Shown here one piece after another: positions 36,912 through 42,902 of a stretch of 47,187 nucleotides of DNA. Within the stretch, counting starts at the first letter, position 1; every line of letters begins with the position of its first letter. Position numbers and translations under genes: made by a program. The stretch is from a candidate division WOR-3 bacterium (GTDB taxonomy: Bacteria > Hydrothermota > Tepidihabitantia > Tepidihabitantales > Tepidihabitantaceae), in contig JBDRUF010000006.1 in NCBI GenBank assembly GCA_039801245.1, forward strand, positions 1 to 47,187, in the 5' to 3' direction. The notes below the pieces were generated by a model. The model ran no database searches. It was not told the DNA's origin and worked only from the letters and a program-made list of their open reading frames with translations.

Positions 36912-37511
36912 TCAACTACCGCCTGTCTCTTCCTTATCACCCTCTTCATCAGGCACCGGCTGGACAACAAAACCAGCCTTAACCTTGATTGACTCTGAGG
37001 GCACCTCCCCGCCGCTCAAGTAAAATTCAACCGCCGGACCAGCAATCACCAAATCCTGTTCATCAATCCAGTTGGTTAGTTTGTCATAGGTTTCAGAGAT
37101 TTTTTCCAACCCGCCGGTATGAATGGTAAAGGCAACAGTTATCGGTCCGAGCGCGGTAATATCTATTCCTGACTTCTCATCCCCCTTGGTCTCAGGAGGC
37201 ACAGGCACGCACACCGCCCAACTGCAACTTTCCGGTGACACATCTGCTGGTGAATCGTAGTAAAGTGTAAATGGTTGACCAGCAGGTGTTACCTTATTTG
37301 CCTCAAGCCAGGTCATTAAATCGGCCATTGCCTGCTTGACTTCAGAATATGGTCCGGTCCTGTTCAAAGTGGCAACTGTCATTGCCGGCAAGGTCTCTAA
37401 CTTAACAGCAAACTGCTCTACCGGCTTTGCCTTTTCCTCTTTTGCGCCACAACTGATTAAGAACACTACCACAGCGAAGACAAACACTATTTTCCAACTT
37501 TTATTGAGCAT
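36912..37511 (-). CDS. Lipoprotein with GyrI-like ligand-binding domain
   Basis: 199 aa. Lipoprotein signal VFVFAVVVFLISC, with Cys at the lipobox. The rest resembles a GyrI-like/SOUL-type small-molecule-binding domain: KLETLPAMTVATLNRTGPYSEVKQAMADLMTWLEANK, TLYYDSPADVSPESCSWAVCVPV, TVAFTIHTGGLEKISETYDKLTNWI and VEFYL (the usual E-Y-Y/L end). It probably binds a hydrophobic or cationic compound in the periplasm. Consensus promoter and AAAGGAG upstream. It is the first gene before the V-ATPase genes. Confidence 0.82.
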   Translation of the reverse strand: MLNKSWKIVFVFAVVVFLISCGAKEEKAKPVEQFAVKLETLPAMTVATLNRTGPYSEVKQAMADLMTWLEANKVTPAGQPFTLYYDSPADVSPESCSWAVCVPVPPETKGDEKSGIDITALGPITVAFTIHTGGLEKISETYDKLTNWIDEQDLVIAGPAVEFYLSGGEVPSESIKVKAGFVVQPVPDEEGDKEETGGS

Positions 37512-37779
37512 TACTTCTCCTTTCAGATTACATTGATTATAATCGGGCTTACGATTATAAACCCATCCCCTCCTCTGTCAAGAAATTGTATAAGTCAAAT
37601 ACATTGGCGACATTTTGGTTTTGAAGTTCGTATAATCAGGTCTCTTATGATAAACCCTATCCAGTTTTAAAAATTGCCTTCTTGGATTTCAAAAAATTAC
37701 CAGTCAAACTATCTCAATGTCAGCATTAAGTAAAGAAAGAAAACCGCAGACACATCCAAGGAGAATCTTGGCTAACTTT
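37512..37779. other. Intergenic region before the GyrI-like lipoprotein gene
   Basis: Contains the promoter at 37554-37581. The 200 bp nearer the YncE-like gene shows only a weak 5-bp hairpin (CCAAG/CTTGG near 37757) and no convincing terminator. Confidence 0.5.
37554..37581 (-). promoter_or_regulatory. Promoter of the GyrI-lipoprotein/V-ATPase unit
   Basis: On the minus strand: TTGACA (complement of 37576-37581), a 16-nt spacer and TATAAT (complement of 37554-37559). Both boxes match consensus exactly. Confidence 0.85.
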
Positions 37780-40275
37780 TCATCTGATGACGGTAAACTT
37801 CTGGACCAGGGTGCGGCTATGTTCTTCTATTGTGGCAAAGTATATTCCCGGTGCGAGGTTGCGGGCATCAAGGGTGTTCTGATTTGGCTTGAGGTTTTTC
37901 ACAATTCTGCCACAGGCATCAACTATTTTTATTTCGCCTTTTGCCCGCTGTTGCACGATAAAGCGGCTGCCAACTGAAGGTGAAATCAGCACCATCTTGG
38001 GCTTGGTTTCATTTGCGGGTTTATCCTGAACCCCAATCAGATTGTCCTTTACCGCCACCACCCGCGCATACCGATAGTCGTTAATATAAACCACATTGTT
38101 TATATAATTCCATTGCATTATCTCTGGCTTGATTGGCGAATAAAAGGAGTCAATAATTGTGTTTGTCCGACAGTCAATTACCATAATCATCGGGTTGCGG
38201 GTCTGAGTTAATGAGGTGTCATAATTGGGGAGGTAGAATCGGTCGCTGATCGGATTCCATAAGCATTCTTCTAAGAAATGTCCATACCTAATTCCACAAA
38301 AGAGAATCGTGTCCATTATCTGATTTGCAGCGCAATCAATGACAATGATACCACCAGAAGAATGAGGATAGTAAATCCGGTCGTCAATTGAGTCATAATA
38401 GAAGAAGGGCTCACTGGTAATAGGCACATCCATAACCGAGTCGATCACCGTGTCAGCTTTGGCATCAAGGACATAAACCCGGTCCTGGTAAGGACAGCCC
38501 ATATATATTTGATGGATGTCGCCCTTATTGCGAAAGGCAAGGGGTCTGCCAATGGAATCAATTACCTTTATCACTGTATCACCTTCGCCATCTATTATGA
38601 AGGTTTTTAACCCTGAGGGCATATAGGTAATGGCAGCATAGACCTTGTCGGTATAAGGATTGACATAGCCATCGCCGCTTTCACCAACATCAATTACATT
38701 TTTTATCTCATCATTCTCGCAATCAATGATATAGATGTAGTAGTTGCGCATGAGCTCACTGAAGGGAATGGTATACAACTTGTTCCTTCGAGAACTGTAG
38801 AGGAGATAGTGCCCGCCGATATAACCAGGGATGAAATTGATGAGTGAATCAGTTTCACCATCTAACACATATACCCCGCGGTATTGAGCTGAGGTCAGGT
38901 AGATTTTATTCTCACGGGTGGCGGTGGTGAAATGGAAGAACCATTCTTCACTTGGAACACGGGACGAAAGGTCAACAACTTTTAAAGGAAGGTTGGTGCT
39001 GGCATCATAGACAGTAAGGATTGAGGAGAATGAGTCCCCGTAGATGTCGTTGATGTAGAGACGGTTGGTAACCGGTTGCCACATTATGTGGCTATTTATA
39101 TAACCGATTTTCAAACAGGTTTCCAGCTGTCGCCGGTTGCAGTCAATGATAAAGAGATTGGTTCCATCATTCAGATACAGTCTGTTCGCAGTTGGGTGGA
39201 AAATATAACCGCCATTTAAATGACCCGGAACCGGGATTTCTTCAATCAATGAGTTTGTTTCGCCGTCAAACACCCTGACCCAGGCTATAGGTGGCGGTTC
39301 CGGATTTAACGAAATTGTATAAAGATGGTCGGTATTGGGATTGTAAAACAGGTCACGCAAACTGGATCGTGGAAACAGGAGGGAATCGGTAAGTTGGACT
39401 GTATTTAAGTCGATGATATATATCAAATCATTGGGCCAGTGGGATGGCACACCCGCATACAATTTATTGGCGGAGGTGTTATGAACAAGCCACCAACACC
39501 CCGTTGGCAGTTGCAGCTCACCGAGAACCTGATTGGTAAGACAGTCAATAATCTCGATTTGTGTGGTCTGGGATGAAGTAGCAGTTGCAAACAGCCGTTC
39601 ACTTTCCGATGAGAGAGAAATATTCTGATAACCAAGATTGGGCGGGGCGCTGATTGAGTCGGTAATTGTGTCATTGGTGCAGTCAAAATAATATATTGCT
39701 GTTTGAGTGCAGATGTAGGCGCAACTACGGAGAGAATGAAATACGGTTCTCCAGTGCAACCCCGGCATTTCCTTTATCACCTCGTTATTTCGGCAGTCTA
39801 TCACATAGGTAACAGGCTCACTCTCGTAAAACCACACGGTGCAGTAAATTTTATTGGCGGGAATGCTGATGTTAAGTCGGACATTACTACCGGACCGGGG
39901 TCGCAATCCACCGGTGGGAAGGGTGATGGTATCAACTATTGCCTGAGTGGAGCAGTTGATAACATATAAATTTACTGCCGTATCAGAAGGAAGAACTATC
40001 GAACCCATATATAGGGAGTTGTTATCGGGATTGAAGATAACAGGTCCGGTGATGTTGCGGAGCGGTTTTAACCTCGTTTTTGTTGCACAATCTAAGACCA
40101 CCGCGTTGTTGTGTGAGATGATATAAAGCCTGTTCATAACCGGATTAAATAAGATGTCGTCGAACTCGCCGCAGCCGCCTAAGGTGTCAGGAATATAAAG
40201 AGTGTCAAGGAATTGGGACTGGGCTGGACCGGCAAGCAAAATCCCGACAGCAAGGAAAAGGATTGTATTTTTCAT
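37780..40275 (-). CDS. Secreted YncE/YVTN-type propeller protein with sorting tail
   Basis: 831 aa with a signal peptide (MKNTILFLAVGILLAGPAQS). About fifteen repeats of ~45 residues follow the pattern LYIISHNNAVVLDCATKT, IYYFDCTNDTITDSI and VYVLDGETDSLINFIPG, as in YVTN/YncE propellers; the number suggests two propellers in tandem. Each blade ends in a formula about a value and its 'cause' (DCxxNxIxD). The Por-type tail is IVDACGRIVKNL ... NLAPGIYFATI ... KFTVIR. GGAGGTGA precedes ATG. It is the second gene after the frameshifted Kelch gene, with a 37-nt gap that carries the 14-nt complementary element. Confidence 0.85.
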   Translation of the reverse strand: MKNTILFLAVGILLAGPAQSQFLDTLYIPDTLGGCGEFDDILFNPVMNRLYIISHNNAVVLDCATKTRLKPLRNITGPVIFNPDNNSLYMGSIVLPSDTAVNLYVINCSTQAIVDTITLPTGGLRPRSGSNVRLNISIPANKIYCTVWFYESEPVTYVIDCRNNEVIKEMPGLHWRTVFHSLRSCAYICTQTAIYYFDCTNDTITDSISAPPNLGYQNISLSSESERLFATATSSQTTQIEIIDCLTNQVLGELQLPTGCWWLVHNTSANKLYAGVPSHWPNDLIYIIDLNTVQLTDSLLFPRSSLRDLFYNPNTDHLYTISLNPEPPPIAWVRVFDGETNSLIEEIPVPGHLNGGYIFHPTANRLYLNDGTNLFIIDCNRRQLETCLKIGYINSHIMWQPVTNRLYINDIYGDSFSSILTVYDASTNLPLKVVDLSSRVPSEEWFFHFTTATRENKIYLTSAQYRGVYVLDGETDSLINFIPGYIGGHYLLYSSRRNKLYTIPFSELMRNYYIYIIDCENDEIKNVIDVGESGDGYVNPYTDKVYAAITYMPSGLKTFIIDGEGDTVIKVIDSIGRPLAFRNKGDIHQIYMGCPYQDRVYVLDAKADTVIDSVMDVPITSEPFFYYDSIDDRIYYPHSSGGIIVIDCAANQIMDTILFCGIRYGHFLEECLWNPISDRFYLPNYDTSLTQTRNPMIMVIDCRTNTIIDSFYSPIKPEIMQWNYINNVVYINDYRYARVVAVKDNLIGVQDKPANETKPKMVLISPSVGSRFIVQQRAKGEIKIVDACGRIVKNLKPNQNTLDARNLAPGIYFATIEEHSRTLVQKFTVIR

Positions 40276-40291
40276 ATTTCACCTCCAATCC

Positions 40292-40305
40292 TGCGGCAGG
40301 GTGTC
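40292..40305. repeat. 14-bp inverted repeat, left copy
   Basis: TGCGGCAGGGTGTC on the plus strand. It is the exact reverse complement of 41780-41793. It lies between the Kelch-type gene and the ribosome binding site of the YncE-like gene. Confidence 0.85.
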
Positions 40306-40312
40306 ATATTTT

Positions 40313-41744
40313 TTACTTTACTATCAACTTGCCGCCTGTTTCTGCGGCATTTATCTTGATTCTGTAGAAATAGACACCAGCAGGAACTTTTTTGCCCTCA
40401 AAGTCCTTCAAATTCCACATGCACTTGCCGTTCTCAAGCTTCAACTGGTTGACAAGTGTGCCGTTTTCAGAATAGATTTTTAGGATGATATTGTGAGGGG
40501 CTCCAAGAATCTGGAAGGAGGCACTTCTTTGTGCCGGATTGGGCAAGGCGATAAAGGTTTTAGCCGGGGTGAGTAACGAGGAAGAGGGTTGGCTGCCCTT
40601 TAGTTCAGTGGGAAATTCAGTATAAAAGCCGATGCGGTCATTGTTGTAGCCGAAAGACGCCCAGATACCGGGCAGGGAATCGGAGGGGTTTTGGGAATAC
40701 CAGTAGGCGCCAAAAACAAGGTCTGAGCCATAGGCAACAATGTAAGGCGGGTCTTCACCATCAGGCGACCAATTGTCAGGGACATCATAACAGTTAAACA
40801 CATTATCGTAGCCACCGTGAAAACAGTGAAGGATGGAAGCCCTTTCTGCAGTAGGTTCTTGCGTCAGGTTTCCCCAGGTGTCGTGAGAAACCAAGGCGCC
40901 ACCAATACCTGCTCCTGGGCGGATTAGATTATCGCGTGCCTCCCAGGTCATACTGGAAATTTCATATCTGCTGAAGCGCCTACCAGTATTTGACATCCAA
41001 GAGTAGCCCTGCATCGCATAGATATGTGTAGGTGAAAGTGTTAAATAAGGAACAGGTGGCCACATCGCCAAGTCTGCACCCTCATAAAAGCAGGTATCCG
41101 TATACCCTGGTTCATTAGTGGTGAACGGGGGTAAGAGTTGCCATACGGGAATCGGTGGCGGTGACTTGATTGACCCCTGACCTCCGTAAACCCGGTTATA
41201 GACCCCAAATTCAGGACTTCCGCCTCCTTTTATTAGATAAAACTTGGTGACCGGCCACCCAGGGACCATTGCAAAGCCCCCGAATTTCAAACTCCCACCC
41301 GCACCTATTGGAACCTCTCCAGGGATAAATGTTTCCTTGCTCCAGGTTTGCGTTGGAACATCAAAAGCCCAGAGTTCATTTCTGCCACCAAAAACGGCAA
41401 GGACCTTTTCCTCAGGTGGGTTAGTATACGGGTTGAAGAAATAGCAGATGGAGGCATCATGACAGGGTGCTATTTCACGGGGTGGACCTGGTAATTGGTG
41501 CCAAACTATTGTTCCTCCAAAACCAGCATACGCCCAGAAAAAGCCATAAGGAGCTCTATTGCAAGAGTCTACCAGAAGGAAAAGTTTGCCATATGGTTCG
41601 CCGGGTCTATGTCCGTAGGTTAAAGCGCTCCCCATCCCGGTTCGATTGTATGGGTAGGGGGGTATTAAAATAAGCCCATTCTCCTCCTGTGGCTACCAAG
41701 GGGAGAGAAAGCATTAAAAACCCTTTGATTATGAGGTGTTTCAT
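40313..41744 (-). pseudogene. Frameshifted secreted Kelch-type protein with FlgD-like tail
   Basis: AAAGGAGG precedes ATG 41744, which opens a signal peptide (MKHLIIKGFLMLSLPLVATG) and GEWAYFNTP; that frame ends at 41607. The rest of the protein continues in the +1 frame (YPYNRTGMGSALTYGHRPG...), which runs 440 codons from an internal ATG at 41635 to 40313. The switch point falls at a run of six C in the coding strand (41657-41662). The body has Kelch-like blades (VLAVFGGRNELWAFD, FYLIKGGGSPEFG, IYAMQGYSW) and an FlgD-Ig tail (YSENGTLVNQL ... WNLKDFEGKKVPAGVYFYRI). It may be a true frameshift, a slippage or phase-variable site, or a sequencing error. Both halves keep good coding sequence, so any break is recent. 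Confidence 0.8.
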
Positions 41745-41779
41745 CTTAGCCTCCTTTTTCCTTATATAGTGGAGAGTTA

Positions 41780-41793
41780 GACACCCTGCCGCA
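41780..41793. repeat. 14-bp inverted repeat, right copy
   Basis: GACACCCTGCCGCA on the plus strand, exact reverse complement of 40292-40305. Its right edge (41793) coincides with the predicted transcription start of the minus-strand Kelch-type gene. Confidence 0.85.
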
Positions 41794-41799
41794 TAACTA

Positions 41800-41827
41800 A
41801 TCATACTACAATTCAGCCTCGTGTCAA
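41800..41827 (-). promoter_or_regulatory. Promoter of the frameshifted Kelch gene/YncE-like operon
   Basis: On the minus strand: TTGACA (complement of 41822-41827), a 16-nt spacer and TATGAT (complement of 41800-41805). The predicted start is about 41793. Confidence 0.7.
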
Positions 41828-41962
41828 GCAGATGTATAATTCAATTTGCCACCTGTGCCACGGATGTTACCAAAAACCGCTTGATTTCCATAAATAACCC
41901 CTAACCCCTAATGTCGCATAGGTATCTTAACTTTTCCTAAATCGTCACAACCCGGTCGCTTG

Positions 41963-41990
41963 TTGACAAAGGAATTATTATCTGTATAAT
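41963..41990 (+). promoter_or_regulatory. Promoter of the Ycf48-like gene (leaderless)
   Basis: Perfect TTGACA (41963-41968), a 16-nt spacer and perfect TATAAT (41985-41990). Only six bases (AAACCG) separate the -10 box from the ATG at 41997. Confidence 0.88.
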
Positions 41991-41996
41991 AAACCG

Positions 41997-42902
41997 ATGC
42001 CGAATCGGATAAACTCCATCTTTACTCTTGAAGACACATTTATCGCCTATGCAGCGGGTGATAACGGCACGCTTCTTAAGAGCACCGATGCCGGTGCCAC
42101 TTGGGAGAAACTATCTGTGCCTGTTCAGGTTAACCTCTATAGCGTCTGCTTTCCGGGACAGGCGGTTATTGGCTATGCCTGTGGTGACAGGGGCATCATC
42201 CTCAAAACCGAAAATGAAGGCAGAACTTGGCAGGTGCTTGATTCTGGAACCGATGTTGACCTAAGGGCGATAAAATTTCCAGTTTCACCTGAAATTGGCT
42301 TTGTTGCCGGTGATAAAGGAACGGTTCTGCGAACCACCGACAGTGGTACCACCTGGGAGAGATTAATCACCGCCACCGAGGAAAAGATTATGGATGTCCA
42401 TTTTCCCGCTGATGTCATCACCGGCTATGCGGTCGGTTTGAATGGCACGGTGTTAAAGACAACAACCGGGGGCTCAATCTGGTTCTCCCAGGCAGAAAAT
42501 GTTGCCGAACTTACCGCCAACACCCATTTTACCGCTGTCCATTTTCCTGCTGATGACCTCGTCGGATTTATGACCACAACCCTGGGCAGGGTCTTCTTTA
42601 CCCCTGATGGCGGTGAGGTCTGGCGTCCCTTACCGATTGAGTTTTTCGTCCCGCCACTTTACTCACTTGATATCCGGCATGATACAATGGCGGGCTTCTG
42701 TGTCGGGGCAAAAGGAACTGTGATTCACACCCTTGATGGCGGTAACACCTGGGAGAAAATTGACCCCGGTACCGAAAAGGACCTTTTCAGCATCCGCTTC
42801 TTTGCCGACGGAATTATTGGCATCATCGGCGGTGATGAACACACCCTACTTTTGAGCAATAACGGTGGCTACACCTGGGCTCCAGCAATCATCAAAGATT
42901 AA
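41997..42902 (+). CDS. Ycf48-like seven-bladed propeller, apparently cytoplasmic
   Basis: 301 aa made of seven repeats of ~42 residues (GDNGTLLKSTDAGATWEKL, GDRGIILKTENEGRTWQVL, GDKGTVLRTTDSGTTWERL, GLNGTVLKTTTGGSIW, ... GAKGTVIHTLDGGNTWEKI). This is the BNR/Ycf48 pattern known from the photosystem II assembly factor and from many exported bacterial proteins. Unlike those it has no signal peptide and no sorting tail: the first residues (MPNRINSIFTLEDTFIAY) already enter the first blade. The start is fixed by the promoter, whose -10 box ends 6 nt before ATG, so the mRNA is leaderless and no upstream extension is possible from it. It is a single-gene unit; function unknown. Confidence 0.85.
   Translation: MPNRINSIFTLEDTFIAYAAGDNGTLLKSTDAGATWEKLSVPVQVNLYSVCFPGQAVIGYACGDRGIILKTENEGRTWQVLDSGTDVDLRAIKFPVSPEIGFVAGDKGTVLRTTDSGTTWERLITATEEKIMDVHFPADVITGYAVGLNGTVLKTTTGGSIWFSQAENVAELTANTHFTAVHFPADDLVGFMTTTLGRVFFTPDGGEVWRPLPIEFFVPPLYSLDIRHDTMAGFCVGAKGTVIHTLDGGNTWEKIDPGTEKDLFSIRFFADGIIGIIGGDEHTLLLSNNGGYTWAPAIIKD

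Follow-up and report, generated by a model that had tools for sequence, protein, structure and literature searches.

On the minus strand of a 47,187-nucleotide stretch from a candidate division WOR-3 genome (the window; this phylum is now listed as Caldifarciminota), a two-gene operon raises the question of why its transcript should open with 14 nucleotides complementary to those preceding its second gene. The + strand reads TGCGGCAGGGTGTC at 40292-40305, and 41780-41793 is its exact reverse complement; a second reading of the sequence agrees with the preliminary description on both positions. The promoter (TTGACA-16-TATGAT) places the predicted +1 at 41793, 7 nt past the -10 box, and the right copy would thus form the transcript start, as previously claimed; the left copy, described as lying just ahead of the gene 2 GGAGG, ends 5 nt upstream of it. 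The parts of the operon are the following.

41822-41827, minus strand: -35 hexamer TTGACA (from sequence)
41800-41805, minus strand: -10 hexamer TATGAT, after a 16-nt spacer (from sequence)
41780-41793, minus strand: 5' arm TGCGGCAGGGTGTC, its first base the predicted transcription start (from sequence and predicted fold)
41750-41755, minus strand: Shine-Dalgarno site AGGAGG of gene 1 (from sequence)
41607-41744, minus strand: gene 1 ATG (41744) and signal-peptide frame MKHLIIKGFLMLSLPLVATGGEWAYFNTPLP..., which ends early and is out of frame with the body (from translation)
41657-41662, minus strand: C6 tract, where the gene 1 frame is lost (from sequence)
40313-41692, minus strand: gene 1 body, Kelch-like, about 440-459 aa, stop codon TAA at 40315-40313 (from translation and homology)
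40292-40305, minus strand: 3' arm GACACCCTGCCGCA, 7 nt past the stop of gene 1 and at -30 to -17 relative to the gene 2 start (from sequence)
40282-40286, minus strand: Shine-Dalgarno site GGAGG of gene 2 (from sequence)
37780-40275, minus strand: gene 2, an 831-aa YncE-like/DUF5074 beta-propeller with a type A sorting domain, ATG at 40275 (from homology)

Gene 1 of the window is frameshifted at the C6 tract, its ATG and its body being in different frames, a feature absent from the preliminary description; its product returns a weak match to a type IX sorting tail. No Rfam match is reported in 37500-42300 up to an E value of 0.5. The operon lies between two perfect TTGACA-16-TATAAT promoters: a divergent one (41963-41990, + strand) ahead of the repeat-protein gene at 41997-42902, and another (37581-37554, minus strand) ahead of the next minus-strand gene (37511-36912).

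Judged on length, the pair is not significant. Counting this pair, exact inverted 14-mer matches number 17 in the window and fall at 13 distinct sites, which is the order expected at random. The significance of the pair stems from its placement and from comparison with relatives; the 14-mer has two copies genome-wide, both of them arms of the pair, and no third. For the survey, each promoter-like site was scored against each downstream start region by contiguous pairs only (G-C 3, A-U 2, G-U 0.5), in an enlarged set of about 2.17 Mb and 5,543 pairs that comprised about 1.5 Mb of genome G001 and parts of G000 and G002. Thirteen rows reach at least 34, and every one belongs to a group of nine operons described below. 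None of 4,904 control pairs, in which the start region lies upstream of the promoter, reaches 32, and none of 59,760 random pairings of a leader with a start region reaches 34; the window pair scores 38. Only the contiguous-helix score discriminates the operons from the controls. A survey by duplex energy with internal loops was abandoned as too noisy, its controls extending down to -41 kcal/mol, and a 13-bp pair at L158 (G000:C2) was set aside, its upstream arm having no promoter. Outside the genus, 400 kb of one G003 contig and other stretches of G003 and G009 yield no helix of at least 32; the best match there (30.5, ftsH/dapA) looks like chance.

The corresponding operon is found in two other genomes of the genus, with protein identities of 51-53%, and one of these genomes also carries a paralogous operon. 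In these three operons, the predicted transcript opens with 13-17 nt complementary to the gene 2 start, and the sequences differ. Altogether, nine operons of five lineages (a to e) in three genomes of the genus have a common layout, in which a promoter is followed by a transcript whose first 13-19 nt are complementary to the junction or start region of gene 2, 0.7-1.5 kb downstream. In all nine, gene 1 is Kelch-like and gene 2 encodes a propeller. The arms of the eight operons other than that of the window are as follows (5' arm/3' arm).

G001a: TGCGGCATGGTGCCTCC/GGAGACACCATGCCGTG
G002a: TGCGGCATGGTGCCTCC/GGAGGCACCGTGCCGCG
G001b: GGCTGCGGTGAGG/CCTCACCGCAGCC
G001c and G002c: GCATCATCGCCGCCTCC/GGAGGCGGCGATGATGC (found by survey or homology)
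G000d: AAGTGTCGGGTCGTT/AATGACCCGACACTT (found by survey or homology)
G002d, the ortholog of G000d: GTGCCGGGTCGCTCC/GGAGC-U-GACCCGGCAC, with one bulge (found by survey or homology)
G001e: TGAGCCAATGGTGTCATTA/TAATGACACCATTGGCTCG (found by a position-free scan)

Equivalent positions pair in all nine operons, in one with a mismatch and in one with a bulge; the helix of G001a scores as low as 28 because a C-A mismatch interrupts it. Compared with G001:C1 556431-557802, gene 1 of the G002c operon (L196) has a 458-nt internal deletion, and both arms are retained. In another genus, the locus L177 (G003:C4:331319) holds an ortholog of the e-lineage gene 2 preceded by a C-terminal remnant of gene 1, and the helix is absent.

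The preliminary description had proposed a fold of about 1.5 kb that brings the 5' end of the message onto the region where the second cistron starts, and had noted that arms changing independently among relatives would speak against it. Instead, the arms covary among orthologs and, in paralogous operons, are swapped for other complementary sequences, which supports the proposed fold at the level of sequence. Within lineage a, column 8 reads G-C, U-A or U-G, column 13 reads U-A, C-A (the mismatch of G001a) or C-G, and columns 1-2 shift between Watson-Crick and G-U pairs; lineage d changes U-A to C-G. Two-sided changes are confined to three columns, since the genus is compared through three genomes only. 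A stronger argument than the column changes is that paralogous operons have exchanged their arms entirely, these being unlike in sequence from lineage to lineage and complementary in each. The relatives' start codon, which lies within the arm, is replaced by CTG in the window, where gene 2 begins 31 nt further on; pairing is kept there through a change in the partner arm. As the start codon moved and the pairing persisted, selection on the helix can be separated from selection on the start codon.

The 5' arm lies upstream of the Shine-Dalgarno site of gene 1 and, in eight operons, sits at or beside the predicted +1, with its onset 4-7 nt past the -10 box (15 nt in G000d). In lineages a, b, c and e, the 3' arm begins 7, 10, 10, 11, 9, 9 and 10 nt past the gene 1 stop, hence within 7-11 nt in seven of the nine operons; in lineage d the distance is 16-21 nt. 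Neither arm is inside the gene 1 ORF. Relative to the start of gene 2, the 3' arm covers the following positions.

Window: -30 to -17
G001a and G002a: -9 to +7
Lineage b: +6 to +18
Lineage c: -10 to +6
Lineage d: -1 to +13 and +2 to +17
Lineage e: -2 to +16

Its position is thus steadier against the gene 1 stop than against the gene 2 start. It overlaps the Shine-Dalgarno site, the start codon or the first six codons of gene 2 in eight operons, and only abuts them in the window. A 30S subunit must occupy this start region, inside which eight of the nine 3' arms lie, that of the window adjoining it.

Folding predictions agree with this arrangement. In full-length folds of the 0.8-1.6-kb transcripts, the arms pair with a mean probability of 0.81-0.999 (0.95 for the window, in a 1,548-nt fold), values that are optimistic because ViennaRNA adds no length-dependent penalty for closing a 1.5-kb loop. 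When leaders are swapped between lineages, predicted arm pairing falls to 0-0.35. Cognate leader and start pairs have duplex energies of -30 to -41 kcal/mol; pairs between lineages average -17 kcal/mol, the best reaching -24.8 kcal/mol. Modelled arm pairing at 85 C is still 0.82-0.96, and an RNA thermometer was rejected, since predicted pairing is nearly constant from 55 to 85 C. The 16S G+C content of 58-59% is not decisive for growth temperature.

The case for the helix rests on complementarity that recurs at two functional positions across nine operons, on covariation and on predicted stability; we regard the helix with high confidence as real and selected. The two 14-mers would be the strands of a long-range RNA helix that joins the very beginning of the operon transcript to the gene 1/gene 2 junction, so that the whole of gene 1 is looped out. 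By sequence comparison, several two-gene messages of this genus very probably fold back across a whole gene to control the second. We infer that the helix is a negative element by which the start region of gene 2 is closed or hemmed in, and its main job is probably the restraint of gene 2. Gene 2 would then be translated mainly when ribosomes reach the end of gene 1, and a phase switch in gene 1 would, through the clamp, set gene 2 too. Junction structures restraining downstream genes have precedents (PMC6728339, PMC12548453). The window helix stops 5 nt short of the gene 2 Shine-Dalgarno site and, for this reason, would act only as an adjacent barrier, leaving the start codon uncovered. Against the restraint of gene 2 stand the free Shine-Dalgarno site and start codon of the window, and the location of both arms outside the gene 1 ORF, where an elongating ribosome does not melt the helix. 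Given the ribosome footprint, a ribosome terminating on gene 1 would touch only its edge.

A phase switch is suggested by gene 1 itself, which contains a frame-setting repeat tract in all nine operons and therefore looks phase-variable. The tract is poly-C in the a and b operons (C6 in the window; C8, C8 and C7 in the relatives), poly-G about 100 codons into gene 1 in lineage c, (GAGAA)n immediately past the ATG in lineage d, and poly-G near the gene 1 start in lineage e (G6). Tract sites were recorded at 41657-41662 (minus strand), at L043, L044, L045, L159, L163 and L196, and near G001:C2 484109, as C6-C8, G6-G7 or (GAGAA)n. In the assemblies, gene 1 of G002d is in frame and that of its ortholog G000d is out of frame, as are the other seven of the nine. 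Between G001a and G002a, the out-of-frame gene 1 body has a dN of 0.07 and a dS of 0.27 (dN/dS about 0.28), and gene 2 a dN of 0.08 and a dS of 0.39. By these substitution rates, the out-of-frame body is under purifying selection, and so is probably made at least sometimes. Phase variation would be the simplest reading of the tracts, which may instead reflect programmed slippage or frameshifting, or sequencing error. The helix is not needed for phase variation, since there are sister operons with repeat tracts that lack it; in several of them, the gene 1/gene 2 junction forms a strong local hairpin instead. A second Kelch/YncE operon family has a (TACTC)n tract in the leader and no long-range helix, with a strong local junction hairpin in those examined (G001:C1 near 368715, 372336 and 376353; G001:C2 near 546733; L164). 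Orthologous secreted-protein genes near G001:C2 433285 and at L206 (G003) have C7 and C9 tracts in the signal peptide, both out of frame, and repeat-tract switching may therefore reach a second genus.

The best overall model is a 5'-terminal clamp that probably restrains gene 2 initiation. That the helix makes gene 2 depend on the phase of gene 1 is a tentative reading, judged less likely than not. Equally tentative is the full model, in which the clamp loops out a phase-variable gene 1, gene 2 follows the frame of gene 1, and the mRNA 5' end is shielded too, across five operon lineages whose arms are unrelated, all in one genus.

The shielding of the 5' end could also be the main effect. The helix would then hide the 5' triphosphate from 5'-end-dependent decay, bound gene 1 on its 3' side with a stem and close a loop that protects the gene 1 mRNA, any effect on gene 2 being secondary. 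Stems at the 5' terminus are known to stabilise bacterial mRNA, and the 4-7-nt onset of eight 5' arms leaves almost no unpaired 5' nucleotide. The closer tracking of the gene 1 stop by the 3' arm and the uncovered gene 2 start in the window also fit this explanation. However, eight of the nine partner strands enter the Shine-Dalgarno site, start codon or first codons of gene 2, which stabilisation does not need, and a simple 5' hairpin would suffice with less; we consider protection of the message unlikely as the main function. Less likely again is that selection acts on any strong helix just past the gene 1 stop, which would block post-termination ribosomes or set processing, the 5' end being merely one source of a strand. 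The sister Kelch/YncE operons without the long-range helix are in line with such a barrier, as the regional folds of their junction hairpins reach about -27 to -54 kcal/mol, against a background 60-nt mean of -10.4 kcal/mol, and begin about 7-13 nt past the stop in three of them. However, the use of the very 5' end by five lineages is left unexplained, and the two-gene operons L158 and L206 have neither helix nor hairpin. Both stabilisation and a junction barrier are still to be reckoned with as rivals, and may be additional effects of the helix.

Explanations at the DNA level fare worse. The preliminary description had offered the termini of a moved cassette as an alternative; the arms could likewise bound an invertible segment or be paired operators of a DNA-looping regulator. 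Gene 1 is indeed flanked by two inverted copies, TGCGG is common to the a and b lineages, and the G002c arms survive the internal deletion in gene 1. Yet the arms vary among operons of one genome, which leaves no common recombinase or operator site, and no common near-identical terminal repeats, as expected of an invertible element or mobile cassette, were found among the nine operons. Moreover, differences between arms are G-U-compatible and include a bulge, the promoter is outside the segment, and the window 14-mer has no further genomic copy. With operon-specific arms that sit near the +1 and at the junction, the cassette is not retained, and a DNA-level origin of any kind is very improbable. 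A chance match, for which the 13 inverted sites in the window could be cited, is hardly credible, being refuted by the survey, the controls and the recurrence of both positions, with covariation, in nine operons.

Among known systems, unfolding-type translational coupling (UTNI; also gnd; PMC6728339, PMC12548453) likewise places a downstream start in a long-range pairing, and here the start region of gene 2 is predicted to be base-paired, with overlap in eight operons and an abutting helix in the window. In that system, the partner strand belongs to the upstream ORF, and ribosomes elongating through it open the pairing, whereas here the partner is the untranslated 5' terminus: the 5' arm precedes the Shine-Dalgarno site of gene 1 and the 3' arm begins 7-21 nt past its stop. 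As neither arm is inside the gene 1 ORF, this is not classical unfolding-type coupling. The 5'-UTR/3'-UTR pairing of icaR in Staphylococcus aureus (PMC3868564) is similar in that a 5' element pairs across a whole ORF for the control of initiation, and covariation and prediction point to a leader that pairs with a distant element of its own mRNA here as well. However, in icaR it is the first gene whose Shine-Dalgarno site is silenced, by the 3'-UTR, whereas here that site is outside the 5' arm and the 5' end pairs with the region around the start of gene 2; several operons with unrelated arms are involved, and no RNase III step is known. The repeat tracts recall the contingency genes of Campylobacter, Helicobacter, Haemophilus and Neisseria (PMC6321876, PMC2823697, PMC2651432, PMC5084427), in which poly-C/G or short tandem repeats near the 5' end set the frame. 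The 5' part of gene 1 also contains such tracts (C6/C8/C8/C7, (GAGAA)n, G6; the c tract being about 100 codons in), and G002d and G000d provide an in-frame and an out-of-frame version. Unlike those contingency genes, gene 1 opens an operon in which the 5' end of the transcript pairs with the cistron that follows. Literature searches returned little on long-range intercistronic pairing, and nothing that combines a phase-variable first cistron with pairing between the 5' end and the second cistron. The helix of the nine operons would work like those of UTNI and icaR and is filed as a member of neither; it would extend known long-range start-site sequestration in a new form.

Helices that bridge a gene are usually dismissed as folding noise. 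The recurrence of this placement in nine operons, with covariation, indicates that a regulatory helix of such range can be picked out by comparison on a genome scale, with no experiment. For a phylum known mainly from metagenome-assembled genomes, the arrangement suggests a route from a single-gene repeat-tract switch to an operon switch.
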